Source of the DNA: Prostheceraeus crozeri
Lineage: Eukaryota; Platyhelminthes; Polycladida; Euryleptidae
Length of the DNA stretch: 64,000 nt
NCBI GenBank assembly: GCA_907163375.1
Contig: CAJQUW010008624.1
Span: 1 to 64,000, forward strand
Reading direction: 5' to 3'
In this document: positions 3,209 through 45,512 of the stretch, in pieces
How positions within the stretch are numbered: position 1 is the first letter of the stretch
Layout: each line of letters begins with the position of its first letter
Notes under the pieces: model-generated
Told to the model about the DNA's origin: nothing
Seen by the model: the letters and a program-made list of their open reading frames with translations, nothing else
The model's database searches: none
Translations under genes and position numbers: made by a program

Positions 3209-6200
3209 GCGATTCGTCCTTACAACGGAGAATACAGCGGATTGGAGAGTATGAAAATACATCTCATGAGAAGAATTCATCAGGAGCGTTTAAGCGCATT
3301 TTCATGTAACACTTATCTCAGAAATCCAATAGCCAACGATAATAATGTAGAAACTCAATCAAATTCTCACAAATTATCTAAAGTGACTTGGTAAAAAAGA
3401 CTGAAGTGCGATTAGTTTCTTAATAAACTTTTAGAGCTGGTAAAATTCTTATGCATTCAAATATACATCATGGCATCACACAAGTCACATGCGACGATAG
3501 AGTCATGCGACCTATTATCAAATTTACGGAATTTCATTTGTATAGTTAATTACATAGCTGTTACGTCTCGGTTACGATCTTTCATTTGACCGAATATTAT
3601 TGCTGTTCTGCTATAATTTCTGCAGAAATTGGACCGGATACACAGTCGAACAGAGCACGAATACCACAGATGATGACAGCAGATGAAATTACAACATATG
3701 ATGATGTAATGTCTTGTTAGCCGTCTTAGCTTTGTCTTCCAATCACTAATTACTGTTTAGTATTGTCTCAGCGTATGCATTTGTGAATATAATAGCGAAT
3801 TCAGCAATTACTTCAGGATAACTGTAAAACGTGCCAACTTGATATGAGAAGCAGTCACTTAAGGCAATGAATTTGCTTCCTGCTGCTAGGAACCGCGAAT
3901 TCTGCATACAATGCACCCAATTTCCGTGCTTCTCTGCCGGCTGCAACATATGCAAAGTATTTATACTGAGCTCTACCAGGGTAAAGATATCCTAAATCAT
4001 TCCTAGTCCATTGTTTTAGTCACAGCACATGCTTGAAACGCAACCAAGTTACTCAAATTCAAGTCTTCTCAATGCAGTGCATCTATATTTTCCGAAAGAA
4101 GATTCAGGTCCGAGTATGAGGAGGACAATATATATGATATGAACTCGGGAAGGAAAAAAATATAGATTTCCGAGGCTGCGAAGAATGCGCTGAAGTGATT
4201 AAATAAAAAACTCTGAAATGTTCAGCACTTGCCCTCAAAATTCCATGTTAATGTTACATAGCTTGCGACATTTGTTTAAACATTTCTAATGCCTAACATA
4301 ACACAAACACAATACACACTATGTTTAGTTTGACTCATACTAAGTCGGAAGTGGGAAGCGGGAGTCTTCAAACAAAAGCCAATCCATCCAATCACTTAGG
4401 ATTTTAGTTCGCCGGTCGCAATGATTTTGATGGAATGTAGATCTATCGAAAAGCTTCCACTACAGATCTTCACTGATTGGCCAATACTAAAAAAGCTTTC
4501 TCCCTTAACCATTAAATGCACTTGTGATAGACATCTACTTAAAGTCGATTCAACCAAAAGCTCAACTATTGGGAACTAGACAAAACTGCGAGTACAAACA
4601 TATTGTACCTCCTAGGCTATTATGGAATTTCTTTTTTCTTTAATTCAAATGCATTTGTGAAGCAAATGTCGAATTAGCAGGCAGCTAATGCAATCACATT
4701 CTCTTCATTATGACCATTTCATTATGTCTTATAATAATGATCATTCGGGTAATTCAAAAGCATTCTGATCGTATGCTGATATAGTATGCTTATACAATGA
4801 CGAACTATAAAACTATTATGACTATTTTCAACCTATTGGTATAAGAATCAACCAGATATTTTACCTAAATTACATTAGAAACAAATTCAATTTTTCATAG
4901 CAGCTGGTTTCAATTAATTTCATCAAAATTCATTGTGCTAAACACCAAGTCAAGTCTCTAGTCACTGAGCCACGCAGATACAAGACTTTTCAAACTCATT
5001 TTCAGTCATAGCAATATAAAATATTACACTTTTTCACTTGCCAATGCGTTGATATATCATATCGCCTGTTTACAGAAAGACAAGAAGCTCAAGATTATTC
5101 ATTAATTTTTTTAAAATTTCAATGCTACTTTTGTACGATTCATTGCTTTTAGCCAGGACTACGGAGCCCGTGTAACTTAAAGTTAAGTCCGAGTCTGGAA
5201 ATTAGTTTCCAATAGAACCGGAGTCTTATACATGCAGAGGGTGCAACTTCATATAAATGAAAAATCGCCTCTGGCTTTCCGTGGAATAAAAAGCTTTCAG
5301 CCACAAAATCGCTTAAGCGATTATTCAAAAACTTCATGGTTTATTTCTATTAAATTACTCAAAACGTAAGAACACTGTAGCTCCAAAAGGCTTTCAAACT
5401 CAATTGTCATAGACTTGGATAATTGATGTGAAAATATATTGTTCAACTTAATAGCATGCGTAGTATTGAGAAACATAACGTGGGATGACATTATCCTCAG
5501 TATTGAATTAAAGCTGCGGAGAAATTGGTCTGCCATTTCTTTGCACTAGTGATGTGTTGTCTTATGTAATATTTCATATACATGTACCATTGGACTTATA
5601 ATAAGAAATAGATGTGACTTTACTTAGGCCTTAAATTGTCTTATATAGTGGATATACTGTAGTAGTTGACATTATCATGATAATTTATGCTATCATAATT
5701 TTGTTTTAAATGGAGTGAGTATCTGTATATTACACTCTTGTACATGAATAAGCAAGCATAACTTGCGAATTTCGGTGAAAGTCTTGACAACAAGAATTCG
5801 ATGAGAAAATAGGACTTAGCAAAAATCTAAAAGTTTTGCCGATTTCGAACTCGGCTGAAAATGGCTGTCTCGGTAGCCCTGCTTCAAGCAATCTTTCAGT
5901 CGAGCTTAAACATGAATGTGATTTGTAATTACCATGCTGCAAGAACCGTGCAAGGATATCAATGACACCTACAGCAGCAGGTTGATTACTCGTAAATAGG
6001 GCTACAGCTAGACTTACATTTCAGAATTTATGAGCCCTGAAATTCATTTAAGTGATGAACAAATTCTTAAGTTTTCCAAGTCGTCTACATTGGAATATAA
6101 TTTATGAGCTTACCGGCTGTGAATGACAGGAAGCAATGTAACTGTTGCATATTTCAAGCGATGAAAAGTTCCCAAGTTATAGTTCAGCTTTTCTTTGTAG

Positions 6201-38034: not shown

Positions 38035-40435
38035 TTCAATCGTGCACTTCAAGCTTATTCAAAATCAAAGAAGATCAAAGTTTAGAAATTTCCAATTATA
38101 GAGGAAAGTGGCAATGCCAATTAATTGATTGAACAAAATATAATTGATTGATGCATTAACAATCAATTATTTGCAATTTCTGCTGCATATATCAACAAAT
38201 TGATTCAACTCAGAGTGACCGATTACAGCTATCACTTGTAGTAATGCACGCCATGACTGAATATGTTTGTGCGAATGTCTATACCAAATGCACTTGTTTC
38301 CGCTCTCATATAAAGCAAGAGTTCAAACATTCACTAACTTGAACATAAAAAGTCGATACATATCCATTACTGAGCTGTGATTCACCCATTTCCATGTCTG
38401 AATTTATCAAATTGCTGTACAGTTAAGACAAACTCTATAACTATTATACCGCGATGATGTTCATCAGCAAATATACGACACAAGGCTGGCATTTATGACA
38501 GCGGTTTTATGAGCGGTTATGAGGAACGGTTTTATACAAGCGCAAACTTTAAGTGATATTTACAACTAAGTCAATCTGACCACTTGTGATTTCAAACTGT
38601 TCGAGGGCATATATCAACATTTCCAAGGTTTGTGTGACGAACTGCAGCCGTGGTAATTCATCATGCTCAAATAGGCCCAACGAATGCAACCTTCATTCCT
38701 CAATAAACCGGCAGTGGTAAACATATATAAGTCGATTTGATTGCTAGAACACAACGGCATTGATGTTCAAGATCTTTATTTGTGTAGTGCGAGTACTTTT
38801 ACGACAAGTCGTTACACATTTTCGAGAGAATAACCATTAAAGCACAGAATTAAACATTTTGTTTATCTGCTTCGGTTTGCTAGAGGTGTGATTAATACGA
38901 AATCGACGGCACATCGAGGAACTTAGTGAGTGGGCAAAAAGGAATTCCTAATACCTTACAGAGATAGGAAAAAAAGTCGTGCGTCACTTGCGGATTAATG
39001 TGAGTTCATGCAAAATGCTTCGATTGCCAAAATTCCTTCAGATTCGAAGAATTCAGATCATTGGACACAAGTTTTCTCCATAATGTTGGCCTTTCCAATC
39101 ATTATTAAAAAAAGTAGCAGGCGTGCGAAAATTAGTTCACTTGATGATTTCACATCCTCTTCTCACTGCATAGTGCATACACTGAATCGAATGTTAGTCA
39201 CACAGCGATGTGTGTTTTGGTGTGTGCGAAGTGATATCGCAGCACGCACGCATCTCTCCCTGGCTCTGGTGTCCTCCACTGACAGCTGATTGTTTGCCAT
39301 TTCCAAAAGCAAGCGATACACGAATTATCCATTAGAGAAGGAGCAAGTTGTGTGATGTGATGTGCCATTTCGATATTTAGGTTACATATAACACTTCCTT
39401 TCTAGGAAACCGAAGCGCCCGCAGATGAATCTAATTCTGTGCATTAGAGCATTAAGATGGTAGGACAGCTGAGAGTGTTTAAATACCGACTCACTACTAC
39501 TTTAATTTCTTTATTTAGTAGTGAGTTTGAACTCATAACATGTTCCTCTCTCGCTCTATGCGTTGTTATACATCAAGTGCACATGTACTGTTATTGATTA
39601 ATAATCGTGTACTGGAACGACAGGCATGCCACGGTCTGTCTGTCAGTGTCACTTGGTCAGAGCTTGATAATGGTCTGTGAAGCAGATCGAAAGCGCTTGC
39701 AAAAATAAAACCTTAATTTCCTGACATCCGGAATTTTGAAGCCTCTAATCATTCTATTAGATTGAATTATACATACATGTACACAGAAAGGGTGACAGTC
39801 TCAAGAATTGTTGGAATGTAGCCCATATCGAAAAAAGAAAAGACGTCTTCTACAATCTACAGTGGTCAGGCCACAGATTTTTCCATTTTTTCGCAGCTCT
39901 ACAAAATTATCGCAGGCGGGAGAGACTGATAGTCCAATATGTCTTGTGCAATTTCCTCAAACTTTGATATAGCTACAACGCAGTGATTCAAATGGCAATT
40001 AAGTGCTTGCTTGTAATAAGAAAGATTTTCCAAAAGTAGAAGACTCTTTTACTGGAAAAACACAATGTAGGATTCTTTCATAAAAATTATAAACATTGCT
40101 TTCTATCCATATTTAAAATATCGCAACCCAAGTTAAGATGAAAATAATGTAACCTACATAATTATTCCTAATACATAAAGATTTTTGCAAATGCGGACGT
40201 TTTCAGGCGTCCAATTGAGGTCCTTTTAGGGACTCGCAAAATGCTAGTACTTTGCGGACGACCTTTAAGGATGAGTCTTGTGGCTTGTTTGAGTATTGAT
40301 CCAATAAAGAGCACTATATTCTGCAATCCACTACCAATCTTCAAAATGTGCACATTAGGCCTAGCCAGATCATACAAAGCCCTAGTGATTGAGGCTATGC
40401 TAACAACAAATGTTAATTGATGTGTCTTCATTTTT
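38035..40435. other. No recognisable gene
   Basis: No supported coding motif. A hairpin followed by GAAAGCG and then AAAATAAAACC occurs at about 39668-39712 and resembles a PLE-type 3' end (see findings). The 93-codon frame at 39008-39289 is unrecognised. Confidence 0.4.
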
Positions 40436-40439
40436 TCAG

Positions 40440-40510
40440 CTTGTATATGTGTATATATTTTGTATATATTCATATATACATATATACATATATATATACA
40501 ATATATATAT
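40440..40510. repeat. TA-rich microsatellite
   Basis: Alternating TATATA with TACATA interruptions. It abuts the left direct repeat of the 40511-42717 element at the nucleotide. Confidence 0.9.
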
Positions 40511-40667
40511 ACAGTAATAAAAGCCCAAAAGAAAAAAATCTAAACTTAGGAAATATCCCAACCGGTTGCGTCCCTTTCTGGGACTTTTCAAGGGATTAAT
40601 GATTTTTATTTGAATTTTGCATATTGTAACTCACAAGATCATAGTTGGTACATAGACATGAGTTTGT

Positions 40668-42529
40668 CAGTTAGTAATACGTATGTCCTCTGTGTGCATA
40701 TGAACTGTGCTGGTCATAGCATGAAGATAATCTTTCCATAGAATTCGAGTTTCTGATGCTATACCTATCATTGTCCTCTCTATTTCGCCAAATACATTTT
40801 TCTTGCTTATTGAAATGTTTGAAGTTATTTCGTTCCTTAATTCTCCAGTTGTTGCGATAGAATCCTCCATAATTATTATTAGGATCGTCATGTTTTCTGT
40901 TGATATTCATTTGTTGTTTTCTACAGTGGTTGCAGTTCGCATTTCTTTGTTACAAATTTATTTTCACTATTCATTGATATTAAATGCTTATCCGATTCAA
41001 AAAATTTTCGTTTACTATTCCAAATGTCAATACAGTACTTCTTTTCTGTTTACGTTACATATTTCATTCCATTGGTCTTCACGGGGCTTTGCTTCCTTGT
41101 TATTATAACAGTCTTTCAGATATTCCACTATTTCAGAATCTATTCTTTCTACGGTTTTCGTCTTGATGTCTGCTATTAATCTTAATCTTTTAATTTCAAA
41201 TTCACATTGATTAATGCATTGCTGTTTTCGAAGCTCTCTCTCTTGTTCATAATTTTGAGTCACCGGTATTTTGAAAAATTTCTTCTAGTCCTGGGGCTGA
41301 GGGGGGTTGAGTGTGCAAAAATATGTCCCCGCATTTTGACTCTTGATTCTTGTAAAGGACCCCTAGGATGATGAAAAAAACTTGGGTAGACATTCCAGAT
41401 CGAGGATCTTGACCCCTAAAATCAAAATGGCGTCCAAGATGGCCGCCACGTCATTGTTGTCATAATAACAGAGCATAGAAGTCACAATGCATAGTGATAA
41501 TGGAGTCTAATCCTAGGTTATCAGGGTCAAGGAATCTATTGAGACTATTGTTGACTCCATTATCACTATGCTATGGCACTTCTGTAACCAAAAGCATCAA
41601 ACTAGCATAAAAATGAATATTTCTTGGATTTTGGTGGCCTCATGGGGCGGCCATTTTGCATTTATTTGACCATGAGATGGTTGAATTGGCTTGTAAATAG
41701 TCTCAATAGATTGCTCGACCCTGATAACCTGAGAATAGACTCCATTATCACTATGCTATGGCACTTCTGTAGCCAAAAGCATCAAACTAGCATAAAAATG
41801 AATATTTCTTGGATTTTGGTGGCCTCATGGGGCGGCCATTTCGCATTTAATTGACTATGAGATGGTTGAATTGGCTTGCACATAGTCTCAATAGATTCCT
41901 TGACCCTGATAACCTAGGATTAGACTCCATTATCACTATGCATTGTGACTTCTATGCTCTGTTATTATGACAGCAATGACGACGTGGCGACCATCTTGGA
42001 CGACATTTTGATTTTAGGGGTCAAGGTCCTCGATCTGGAATGTCTACCCAAGTTTTTTTCATCATCCTAGGGGTCCTTTACAAGAATCAAGAGTCAAAAT
42101 GCGGGGACATATTTTTGCACACTTAACCCCCTCAGCCCCAGGACTATTCGGGATTCTTTGAATATCTCCTTTTAAAGCATTTTCGTATATTTCGGCGATT
42201 GACTTATTTCTGAGGGCTTCATAAAAAGCAAACTTTCTTTGTTTGATTTTCTTATTCCAATCTATTTTTGAAATTGATATTCGTGATAGCTTCTTGTTCA
42301 TATCAGTCATTTCCACCTTGATTTCCTCTTTCAAATGTATCATTTCTTTTGTGTCATTTACCATTCTGTTCAAATCTAATTTTATACCTAACTGATAGGC
42401 TGTCAAAAGTTTATAAATTGATTGTACTACATTCGTCAATCCATCAAATTTGTTTTCTAGACTTTCCATCTTATCAAAAAGAACTTGTGCCTTTTCCTTC
42501 GCATTAGATTGTCCCTTCCAGGAATCCAT
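40668..42529 (-). pseudogene. Coiled-coil and zinc-knuckle protein, interrupted by a MITE
   Basis: The minus-strand frame starts MDSWKGQSNAKEKAQVLFDK at 42529. It is rich in heptad-like Leu/Ile/Lys/Glu (MESLENKFDGLTNVVQSIYK; MTDMNKKLSRI), predicting a coiled coil over about the first 100 residues. It runs to DIQRIPN at 42146, where the MITE enters. Beyond the MITE the protein resumes as FKIPVTQNYEQERELRKQQ, another helical stretch ending EDQWNEICNVNRKEVLY. After frame changes comes NCNHCRKQQ and an Asn/Arg-rich tail (NNNYGGFYRNNWRIKERNNF). The layout recalls Gag-like or ORF1 RNA-binding proteins or the poorly conserved N-terminus of PLE proteins. No family was recognised. At least two frameshifts besides the insertion make it inactive. 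Confidence 0.55.
41288..42144. mobile_element. 857-bp MITE with very long, nearly identical terminal repeats
   Basis: The arms are about 255 bp (41288-41541 and 41887-42144), starting GTCCTGGGGCTGAGGGGG, and almost identical. TA flanks each end (41286-41287 and 42145-42146). The centre holds two tandem copies of a unit of about 188 bp beginning GACTCCATTATCACTATGC (near 41550 and 41738). A third partial copy of the unit is formed by the right arm. GC-rich words such as CAAGATGGCCGCC stand out against the AT-rich surroundings. It has no coding capacity and interrupts the coiled-coil ORF. High arm identity suggests recent insertion or arm homogenisation. Confidence 0.9.
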
Positions 42530-42715
42530 TTTTGAAGTAAAATAATGAAAAAAATAGTAGGTCAAAAATGGTCAATCAATACAGTAATAAAAGCCCAAAA
42601 GAAAACAATCCAAACTTAGGAAATATCCCAACCGGTTGCGTCCCTTTCTGGGACTTTTCAAGGGATTAATGATTTTTATTTGAATTTTGCATATTATAAC
42701 TCACAAGATCATAGT

Positions 42716-42717
<2 letters not shown>

Positions 42718-42772
<55 letters not shown>
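42718..42772. repeat. (TA)n microsatellite
   Basis: Nearly pure TA dinucleotide run between the right direct repeat of the previous element and the first base of the mariner-type element. The final TA serves as the target site of that element. Confidence 0.95.
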
Positions 42773-42775
<3 letters not shown>

Positions 42776-44331
42776 GGTGTCCGTAAATTCGCTTGACTTT
42801 TAAATTGAATATCTACATGAGAAAACAATAAACTTTTGTGTCACAAACCATGATATATTACGCAACATTAAGGGGAATTTACGAATCTAACCATAAGAAA
42901 TGAATATTCGATTATTTAGCTGCTAAATTTTACATTCTGCATGCAGTCAATTTTGTAATGAATATTACATGCACAATTATAGTTTTGGTGAATTCATTTC
43001 AGTTTCAGTAAATGTTTAAGTCAATTCGCCGTATTGTCAATTATTTCAATTAACCTTACCCAGGAGACATAGCTCAAAATTTTCCCTTATTCAATTCTAT
43101 GAAACTTTCATCACCAGCCATGACGACATGCCTAGTCATTGATTGATTCATATCGTATCATCTTCAATTGAGAACGTCAAAGTAATCAGCCTTCATGGCA
43201 TAGAATTGAAATATCCCATATCCATGACGTGATGGTTTTCGCTAACCAATGACAAAGACGTGTGTGTCAACCAATAGGTTTAGTCTGCATCATAGAGTTT
43301 CCTCATGCTATGTTCGAAATCCCACTGTGAAGTGGTACAATCGCTGCCTATCGTATTCACAATGGATCCTCAGACTCGGATAGAGATAGTTCAGTGCCTC
43401 TATAATAGAAGTGATACAGCTGCTCTTCGAAAGTTTAAGATTCAAAGGCACATTCAAAAAGATCCTTTTACAACAGCATCGATTACAAATATCATCAAAA
43501 AGTTTGAAGAAACTGGCAGTGTTCATGATAAACCTCGCAGTGGTTGTCATACAGTGGATGAATTGACAATTGCAACTGTGAATCGCGTCGTCGAGGAGAC
43601 TAGTTCAAAATCAATGCTAGGAGTCACGTCAGTTCGCAAAGTGGCGGAAGAGGCTGGTATCATTTCAAAGACTAGTGTCCATAAAATCCTTCGGCATGAA
43701 CTAGGACTCTACCCGTACAAATTACAAGTCGTGCAAGCACTTGAGTCGGCCGACAAGACAAAGCGCTGTGAGTTTGCGAGATGACATCTCGACAATCAGA
43801 ATGTAATCGATGACATTGTCTGGTCTGACGAGGCGTATTTTTCACTCGATAGGATCGTTAATGCGCACAATTGCCACATCTAGTCAGATGTCAAGCAATC
43901 AACATGCATCTCAAATCGCGTGATAAGTCGAGGATGTGACCGAGAGTGTCCTCTACGTTCACCTGATCTGAATCCTCTCGACTTTGGGTTCTGGAGATGG
44001 ATGAAAGCGAAGATATACGATCATGTTAAGCCACAAAACCTGGACCAGTCGAGTGAGAAGATCACTGACATCTGCAATGAAGTCACAAGTGAAGAACTTG
44101 CCGCTGGTGTTTTCGATACTATTCGGCGATTGACTGCACTGATTGATTGCGACGGCCATCATTTCGAACACTTCATTTGAACATTTTAATCAACAAATAT
44201 TGGCTTCTTATTGCTAGATTCGTAAATTCCCCTTTATGTTGCATAACATAACATGGTTCGTGATGAAAAAGTTTATTGCTTTCTCATGTAGATATTCAAT
44301 TTAAAAGTCAAGCGAATTTACGGACACCCTG
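42773..44331 (+). mobile_element. mariner/Tc1-type transposon inserted in a TA tract
   Basis: Terminal inverted repeats of about 50 bp begin CAGGGTGTCCGTAAATTCGC and continue through TTGACTTTTAAATTG and ATATCTACATGAGAAA. TA lies on both sides. The 1559-bp length is normal for the superfamily. A second pair of matching words (GGGGAATTTACGAATCTA near 42872 and its complement near 44215) lies just inside. The transposase is on the plus strand but has internal damage. Confidence 0.9.
43362..44180 (+). pseudogene. mariner/Tc1-type transposase with stop and internal deletion
   Basis: The likely start is MDPQTRIEIVQCLYNR (43362). The N-terminal helix-turn-helix region includes ITNIIKKFEETGSVHDKPRS (the second half of the paired domain and its GRPR-like linker) and VRKVAEEAGIISKTSVHKIL. 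After EFAR an in-frame TGA (43782-43784) interrupts the protein. Translation past it gives VWSDEAYFSLD, the first catalytic Asp region (WSDExxF). The region of the second catalytic Asp is missing near 43900-43940. The third region, RSPDLNPLDFGFWRWMKAKI, is intact with its PDLNPxDF signature, and the C-terminus ends HFEHFI. It would not be active without the missing middle Asp. Confidence 0.85.
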
Positions 44332-44392: not shown

Positions 44393-45512
44393 TTGTTTCA
44401 TAAAAAATGGATCACCCTTAAACATCGCCTTAACTTCAACTTTGTCTAACTCCGCCAAACTTGAACGAATTTCTCTGAAATTTGGAAGATATGTCAGTTG
44501 TGCTTACTAATATCATTGTTGGAAATTTCAAGCATGAATATTGAGTTGTTTTCCTGTTATAGATAAAAAAGTAGTAGATAATTTGATCTTCATTTAGCAA
44601 TGTTACACAAAATCATACCTCACTCTTATAAAATTACATTTGTTTCCTTTGTTATGTAATGTGTTGTTCTACAAGCCAAAAGCTATCAAGCAAAACAAAA
44701 ATAAAGAAAATCGGTCAATCAGAGCCAGTATAGCACCATTATTCATCAACAATAATATAACTGCTACATGTGATTAACTGGACTTCATGTTCCATAGCTT
44801 CCTGACTTCGTTGCGGTGGTGTTGGCAGCACTCCTGATTGCTTTCAGCTAGAAATCTATCTCTTACCGGTTGAAAACAATACAAAGCACAAATGAACAAT
44901 AACGAGATCGCATTCACAAAAGACAAAGTGTCACCCTTGCTAGAACTAGGCTGAACTTCACATACAGCAAGGAACCATGAATTCTGAACGCTATGTGAAT
45001 GTTTTACGAATGAACATTGGCCAAATGACAGATCAACTTGGTGATCCATCGACTTGGTTATTTATGGATGATAATGCTACGTGTCACAGGAGTAGTAGAG
45101 TCAACTTATGCAAGTCTCAATTAGGGCTTATGACATTATCTTGGCCAGCTCGTTCTCCTGATCTGAATCCCATAGAAAATGTATGGAGTATTCTAAAACG
45201 TAACGTTCGTCGTTCACTGCTACCTACAGATGGCGTATCACAACTTATGTCACTGTTAAAAAGAGAGTGGAGAAAGTTAGATCAGTCAAAAATCAACGAT
45301 ATCATCGAATCAATGCCTAGACGAATTGGTAATGTCATTGACAATAAGGGTAGGGCCACAAAATATTAGCTTCTTAAGAACCGTTACTGCATCAGATTAT
45401 ATAAGGACATTTAAATATAGGGACATGAAATAACATGAAAATGCTTTCTGTATCATACTTATGTTTTATTTAGTCAAATTTTAGGATGATCCACTTTTTA
45501 TGAAACGGACTG
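44389..45512 (+). mobile_element. Tc1-type transposon, 5' half damaged
   Basis: The left end reads CAGATTGTTTCATAAAAAAT and the complement of the right end reads CAGTCCGTTTCATAAAAAGT, followed on both sides by GGATCA. The terminal repeats are about 33 bp with a few differences. TA flanks both ends. The 1124-bp length is below the usual 1.3-1.7 kb, consistent with loss of the DNA-binding half of the transposase. Both outer edges are TA microsatellite. Confidence 0.85.
44977..45369 (+). pseudogene. Tc1 transposase C-terminal half (DD34E)
   Basis: The open frame covers the second catalytic region, WLFMDDNATCHRSSRV, and the third, WPARSPDLNPIENVWSILKR. Exactly 34 residues separate the Asp before NATCH and the Glu of IENVW, the DD34E spacing that defines Tc1. 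The C-terminus (LLKREWRKLDQSKINDIIES then MPRRIGNVI) is typical. The paired-type DNA-binding domain and the first catalytic Asp are not found upstream between 44400 and 44960, so this is a truncated, inactive copy. The Met at 44977 is probably internal rather than the true start. Confidence 0.85.

Follow-up and report, generated by a model that had tools for sequence, protein, structure and literature searches.

A probable ORF1-only, non-autonomous Penelope-like element with a hammerhead-like motif in the genome of the flatworm Prostheceraeus crozeri

Among LINEs, HAL1 (half-LINE-1) and HeT-A keep the ORF1/Gag protein and borrow the reverse transcriptase (RT) in trans, and the biology of Penelope-like elements (PLEs) is poorly understood. 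As described in parts of PMC11167929, PLEs cut and extend both target strands, use an AT-rich target and start reverse transcription at two internal sites, which bound an optional tail of 30–40 bp. Their pLTRs occur in direct and inverted orientation, head-to-head being the most frequent arrangement, one inverted pLTR may carry a 31-bp tail, and PLE pLTRs flanking a mobilised host gene have been recorded (sections of PMC3846280). Compact PLEs carry RT and EN in one ORF or, with two ORFs, lack EN (PMC6431247, in part), short nonautonomous Penelope elements are mentioned in butterflies in a section of PMC6685494, and PLEs have been proposed as the helpers of animal retrozymes in a passage of PMC7761336. 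No description of an ORF1-only PLE was found among the open-licence papers listed.

The DNA analysed here (the window) comprises the first 64,000 nt of contig CAJQUW010008624.1 from the P. crozeri assembly GCA_907163375.1. It contains a unit, bounded by direct repeats (Table 1), that is very probably the decayed copy of a non-autonomous PLE with ORF1 only, here termed half-PLE. Neither RT nor endonuclease nor integrase was found in the unit, as already stated in a previous sequence-only reading of this DNA; this holds for the translations and for Pfam, where the pieces reach no cut-off. As no RT plus GIY-YIG ORF is present, the unit was not filed as an autonomous PLE. In a self-comparison of the window the two repeats, 137 bp each, proved to differ at three positions and, in agreement with that reading, neither to start with TG nor to finish with CA; no further convincing copy of the repeat was found in the window among the matches listed. 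Its sense strand is the minus strand, on which pLTR (with the hammerhead-like motif), leader/tail, ORF1 and pLTR follow each other, and an AT repeat precedes the 5' pLTR in element sense. The window 3' pLTR has an untailed, 'type A' end, the end types having been defined on a set without the window copy.

Table 1. Features of the half-PLE copy (positions in the window)
Feature	Position	Strand	Basis and remarks
5' pLTR (first direct repeat, element sense)	42581..42717	-	137 bp; three mismatches with the 3' pLTR
Hammerhead-like motif, 5' pLTR	42625..42666	-	Anatomy scan; covariation in relatives; unreported by Rfam
Leader stretch, equal to the optional tail ('type B') at the 3' ends of other copies	42542..42580	-	Tail in 21/38 repeat copies
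ORF1 N-terminal piece (MDSWKGQ...RIPN), coiled coil	42146..42529	-	Translation, relatives, profile
Nested fold-back (inverted-repeat) element	41286..42146	.	Arms; absent from L005; TA each side
ORF1 middle piece (IPVTQNYEQ...EVLY)	41030..41269	-	Translation; profile match
ORF1 C-terminal Asn/Arg-rich tail piece (QRNANCNHC...GHTYY)	40674..40949	-	Translation; profile match
3' pLTR	40511..40647	-	Ends ...TTATTACTG, then TA-rich repeat
Hammerhead-like motif, 3' pLTR	40555..40596	-	Anatomy scan

The single reading frame initially proposed was not retained: minus-strand coding is split by the fold-back element and, downstream, by a frameshift and stops. The fold-back element proper (41288–42144) has arms of 167 nt at 93% and two internal 185-bp direct repeats, and the insertion is missing from other copies, the flanking ORF1 pieces abutting in L005. 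The near identity of the two repeats had been read as a sign of recent formation. The three differences stand, but at repeat position 107 the upstream copy of the window is unlike each of the other 20 loci in the comparison, and pLTRs may already differ within a template array, so that their divergence is not a clean clock. Elsewhere in the window, a DDE_3 transposase match (44977–45369, E 1.7e-11) is probably a Tc1/mariner-type remnant, and weak HTH matches below cut-off lie at 43305–43784.

Like Penelope/Poseidon-type PLEs, the half-PLE combines direct and inverted pLTRs, an optional tail, an AT-rich target and 5' truncation with a hammerhead-like motif before the ORF, and its ORF1 appears homologous to the frame before the ORF2 of a local PLE; it differs from them in having a single ORF1 of ~350 aa, without RT or endonuclease. 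With animal non-LTR retrozymes it shares non-autonomous tandem units, a hammerhead-like fold and a palindromic loop, whereas its coding unit of ~1.2 kb (about 1208–1311 bp) and its conserved protein set it apart from that class. By analogy, it would be the PLE counterpart of HAL1 and HeT-A, with pLTRs and a hammerhead-like motif in addition. The Terminons/Athena PLEs of bdelloid rotifers resemble it in being PLE-related, with HHR motifs and coiled-coil structural ORFs, but they are giant, telomeric and EN-deficient, with RT present (PMC6431247, in the part consulted).

Copies were searched in the host assembly (2.05 Gb, one genome), part of the candidates being scored. For the 137-bp repeat there are 583 candidate places; scoring 40 of them gave at least 92% identity in every case, and the unit is thus multicopy rather than single-copy. 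A complete direct unit, present in L005 and in duplicates of it on contig 11096, has its repeats spaced at 1221 bp, approximately as in the window unit minus the fold-back element. Repeat copies adjoin AT repeats. Among 20 loci with context, picked partly for pairs already showing and hence giving no unbiased rate, 12 hold head-to-head pairs with the outer ends in or just past the repeat, two (L043, L045) hold opposite pieces with one usual 3' end missing, and six, the window included, show a single orientation. Copies in head-to-head pairs are 5'-truncated; in L037, L038, L040 and L041 the arms meet directly or share no more than 2 nt, each with its own truncation point, and in L048 one end of the pair lies inside the repeat. 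One half-PLE copy (L035) also has a 24-bp tandem expansion within its ORF1 tail region (3321–3520).

The 3' ends were typed on the 60-nt 3' flank of each of 38 repeat copies: 21 are tailed (~40 nt), eight are untailed, five run into the body and four are of other kinds. Seven of the eight pairs with both ends typed have one tailed and one untailed end, C3729 being tailed at both; in this tally the duplicated C11096 copy was counted once, and C6285 and C13485 each had one unfitting end. As in PLEs, the pLTRs of half-PLE copies are found in direct and/or inverted orientation together with 5' truncation, the tail is optional, with two kinds of 3' end ~40 nt apart, and the target is AT-rich: of the 29 ends that are either tailed or untailed, 27 (all but C10445 and C2831) are followed by TA-rich sequence by eye. 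The AT-repeat flanks, the head-to-head 5'-truncated pairs and the two 3' end kinds are the published PLE signature, and the two 3' end positions may represent RT start sites by analogy with the PLEs described in part of PMC11167929. A non-autonomous PLE with pLTRs, one of the classes considered beforehand, thus gains support from the pLTRs, the tails, the head-to-head 5'-truncated copies, the AT-repeat targets and a motif shared with PLEs of the same genome.

Candidate partner PLEs are indeed present in this assembly. Their RT piece has 12907 candidate places, of which 150 were scored, some being open over 757–759 aa. The ORF2 of L089 (758 aa) and of L090 (757 aa) comprises an RT plus a GIY-YIG-like domain, both matching below the Pfam cut-offs (RVT_1, E ~4e-6, 27.1–27.3 bits vs 29.6; GIY-YIG, E 0.0011–0.0095, 16.7–19.7 bits vs 22.6), and a profile alignment of L089 ORF2 with PLEs whose RVT_1 and GIY-YIG matches exceed the cut-offs spans 580 columns at 29%. 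Downstream of ORF2 lies a motif of the same kind as in the half-PLE (segments separated by slashes), GCCC/GUGAGAG...GAAA/CCGGU/UU/GGGC in L089 and GCCC/UUGAAAA...GAAA/CCGG/UC/GGGC in L090. Partner copies end with the tail (L087) or without it (L089, L090, L094), and one half-PLE copy adjoins a PLE end bearing such a motif (L061, L087).

At their 5' side the partner loci inspected look truncated, and the partner PLEs are known here in pieces; the longer relative that had been suggested, with a coiled-coil ORF followed by RT and GIY-YIG, was found in pieces only. An Asn/Arg-rich frame end precedes and overlaps ORF2 in L089 and L094, with a shorter piece in L091, and the ORF1 profile gave no significant match on L087, L088, L089–L091 and L094. 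In L095, the Asn/Arg-rich frame before ORF2 has a 51-residue match to the conserved ORF1 domain at 43% (34.6 bits, the highest score among 5000 shuffles being 11.8), and hhalign of this fragment against the ORF1 family gave 96.8% (E 2.4e-10, 51 columns). The link between ORF1 and ORF2 consists of this one match and of the Asn/Arg-rich frames overlapping ORF2; on the L095 match, the window ORF1 protein appears homologous to the ORF1 fragment of a bicistronic PLE.

The N-terminal piece of ORF1 returned 151 matches in the host assembly, from 150 scored of 1125 candidates, many of them in uninterrupted frames of 330–404 aa. Tandem copies, which the sequence-only reading had recommended looking for, were found as head-to-tail arrays of related subfamilies, with periods of ~1208 bp (C13438, at least 31 units; C3501; C4935), ~1218 bp (C12950, at least 22 units; C4781; C2965), ~1251 bp (C6670), ~1276 bp (C5217) and ~1311 bp (C8310). 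Array units (L051–L053, L056) contain ORF1 only, without an RT plus GIY-YIG ORF. Alignment of ten translated relatives delimited a conserved domain of ~235 aa and a variable tail, relatives with a plain start and stop being 336–374 aa long and L057 running to 393. Between subfamilies, identity is 47–65% in the domain (dN 0.22–0.43, dS at least 1.57 or not computable) and 19–39% in the tail; the close pair L062/L051 is 92% identical (dN 0.037, dS 0.070). Within subfamilies dN/dS is ~0.25–0.55 in five of six pairs, with few changes, and the sixth differs by a single nonsynonymous change and by no synonymous one; three of these pairs are neighbours in one array or insertion. The intact ORF1 of the array subfamilies is under purifying selection. 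In the subfamily of the window, the N piece looks neutral, with 17, 18 and 17 differences at codon positions 1, 2 and 3 and with changes that are nonsynonymous in 40 cases, synonymous in 7 and stops in 5; the middle piece (29, 15 and 6, respectively) and the C piece (40, 14 and 5) are closer to mild constraint. With its broken ORF and the neutral substitutions in its own subfamily, the window copy is dead.

An AlphaFold2 model of the relative A1 (mean pLDDT 63.7, pTM 0.44) shows a confident helical domain at ~10–234, with predicted helices at 13–85, 91–120, 140–186 and 189–222, and a disordered tail; ORF1 is thus modelled as an all-helical coiled-coil domain followed by a basic Asn/Arg-rich tail. 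Helix 13–85 lends support to the long coiled coil first described for the window, and the character of the Asn/Arg-rich tail is conserved in nine relatives (Asn 11–26%, net charge +10 to +14). The CNHC letters of the proposed knuckle are present in the window C piece but are not a conserved feature, since CxxC occurs in one of nine tails of relatives (L058, of the window's own subfamily); a zinc knuckle was consequently rejected as a family feature. The protein was assigned to no known host or virus gene family: Pfam gave no family above cut-off for the window pieces or the ORF1 of relatives, PDB searched by sequence gave a non-significant best E of 0.044 for the N piece and no match for A1, and the fold search with the A1 model in PDB and BFVD gave 0 matches at E≤0.001. 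These Pfam and viral-fold results are also what was observed, on the protein side, for a possible HDV-like or Obelisk RNA replicon. Relatives of the N piece, the middle piece or A1 were not found in viral_contigs, nor relatives of A1 in genome_contigs.

The minus strand of the repeat reads AUCCC/UUGAAAA/GUCCC-AGAAA-GGGAC/GCAA/CCGG/UU/GGGAU. In canonical hammerheads, positions 3 and 8 are C-G. The window core (UUGAAAA...GCAA) departs from the canonical CUGANGA...GAAA, and Rfam reported no hammerhead even at E 10 in 40300–42900; for its altered core and the silence of Rfam the motif is called hammerhead-like. The three-helix fold of a type I hammerhead is recognisable in eight hand-segmented motifs (six half-PLE subfamilies and two neighbours, chosen post hoc), where 85 of 88 cells pair and compensatory changes occur in stems I and II; among 5000 column shuffles, none reached 85 paired cells and 326 reached the number of pair types. 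Loops are palindromic in seven of the eight (CCGG, CATG, CTAG). Core positions 3-8 are U-A in six, U-G in one and A-U in one; the pair fails in L087 and L089 (G and A), both outside the eight-motif count, the L058 motif combines C3 with A8, and the PLE motifs of L090 and L094 have UUGAAAA with GAAA. A C3G/G8C double mutant of a PLE hammerhead regains part of its activity, as a passage of PMC11167929 describes.

A relaxed hammerhead anatomy (at most three core mismatches), in a scan written after the motif had been seen, matched only the two repeats in the window, and 20 simulated windows gave 13 matches, one with a stem I of 5 bp. A strict scan detected the motif in 9 of 20 relatives' leaders, against 2 of 4000 simulated and 0 of 20 antisense leaders. 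Those nine belong to only two subfamilies (six of the C13438 type, three of the C5217 type); by eye, the remaining 11 seem to be truncated or rearranged. At loci L051–L062 the strict scan matched 8 of 12, the matches in L054 and L061 being the end of the upstream neighbour, and a looser scan matched 11, all but L059. The exact DNA pattern of the motif had 0 matches in viral_contigs.

Other origins were weighed against the half-PLE. Direct terminal repeats around one ORF and a coiled-coil, basic-tailed protein could also be those of a Gag-only derivative of an LTR retrotransposon, moved by an LTR element. This is very improbable, as the ends are not TG...CA, PBS and PPT were not seen by eye, copies often form 5'-truncated pairs lying head-to-head and with two 3' end types, a pattern foreign to LTR integration, and in L095 an ORF1 fragment precedes the ORF2 of a PLE. 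The LTR-type reading, TR-GAG included, was rejected on the ends, the truncation and the head-to-head pairs; what stands of the Gag-only retroelement suggested beforehand is the apparent homology of the protein with the ORF1 fragment of a bicistronic PLE. We give practically no weight to an immobile host satellite or tandem gene family, long and regular as the arrays are, given the dispersed 5'-truncated copies with fixed 3' ends on many contigs. An independent lineage, with the ORF-only element as the ancestor or as the source from which PLEs acquired their ORF1, would suit the several subfamilies at 47–65% identity whose unit lacks ORF2, and a partner ORF1 only 43% identical over 51 columns. 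We consider it unlikely on parsimony only, the same kind of motif and tail being found in PLEs with ORF2.

Closer to the half-PLE, and overlapping with it as regards mobilisation, is a coding retrozyme with a different RNA stage: a self-cleaving circRNA would encode its own nucleoprotein, multiply as circRNA and occasionally be reverse-transcribed, rolling around the circle, into tandem arrays. The long head-to-tail arrays, of at least 22 (C12950) and at least 31 units (C13438), speak for it, as does the hammerhead-like motif with its mostly palindromic loop, which can be likened to the newt-type motifs, with a weak helix III bearing a palindromic tetraloop and cut as dimers, described in part of PMC7229834. 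It is nonetheless a rather doubtful option, in that the animal retrozymes published in the consulted parts of PMC7229834 and PMC7761336 are ~170–400 nt long and non-coding, the hammerhead-like core is altered, and tandem arrays are normal for PLEs too (PMC11167929, in part).

Returning to the half-PLE, it would be what is left of a PLE after the loss of everything but ORF1 and the cis signals (we infer this reduction and its order of loss), and more complete Penelope elements in this genome probably mobilise it in trans. In the proposed mechanism, the tandem arrays would be transcribed and the hammerhead-like fold, a putative ribozyme, would cut the multimeric RNA into units, probably as dimers, while the ORF1 protein would dimerise via its coiled coil and bind RNA via its basic tail. 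The RT/endonuclease of bicistronic PLEs in the same genome would then nick AT-rich DNA on both strands, reverse transcription would begin from two internal sites close to the start of the ORF, and copying from both target ends would yield two cDNAs that join head-to-head.

More tentatively, and with some doubt, half-PLEs may be long-lived coding retrozymes, i.e., PLE-derived ORF1-only lineages whose RNA-binding protein is kept by selection for cis action on its own RNA, which a recoded hammerhead (3-8 C-G changed to U-A, U-G or A-U; palindromic helix-III loop) processes and a bicistronic PLE copies bidirectionally. If this were true, the PLE ORF1, and not RT alone, would be a selectable unit of PLE propagation. 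As a natural ORF1-only derivative, the half-PLE would imply that ORF1 is worth keeping without RT. It would moreover represent a minimal cis-acting unit (pLTR, tail, motif and ORF1), and its genomic copies record both ends of an apparently bidirectional insertion. The rule of one tailed and one untailed end makes the resolution of PLE insertions testable, and the altered but covarying hammerhead-like fold makes the role of the pLTR hammerhead testable.

The same genome contains a second PLE group (L063–L066, on C7452, C6593, C1740 and C1207), with RT-GIY-YIG ORFs of 734–741 aa (split in L065), ORFs upstream and a tandem spacing of ~3.1–4.0 kb on three of the four contigs. Detected earlier than the others, with the GIY-YIG profile, this group was initially taken for the partner PLE; it was set aside, as the upstream ORF of L065, the only one compared, is unrelated to A1 (hhalign probability 0.1) and a motif scan of the four loci gave nothing convincing. 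A separate GIY-YIG match (G000:C6269:69544-69795) lies within an open frame reported as 3625 aa.
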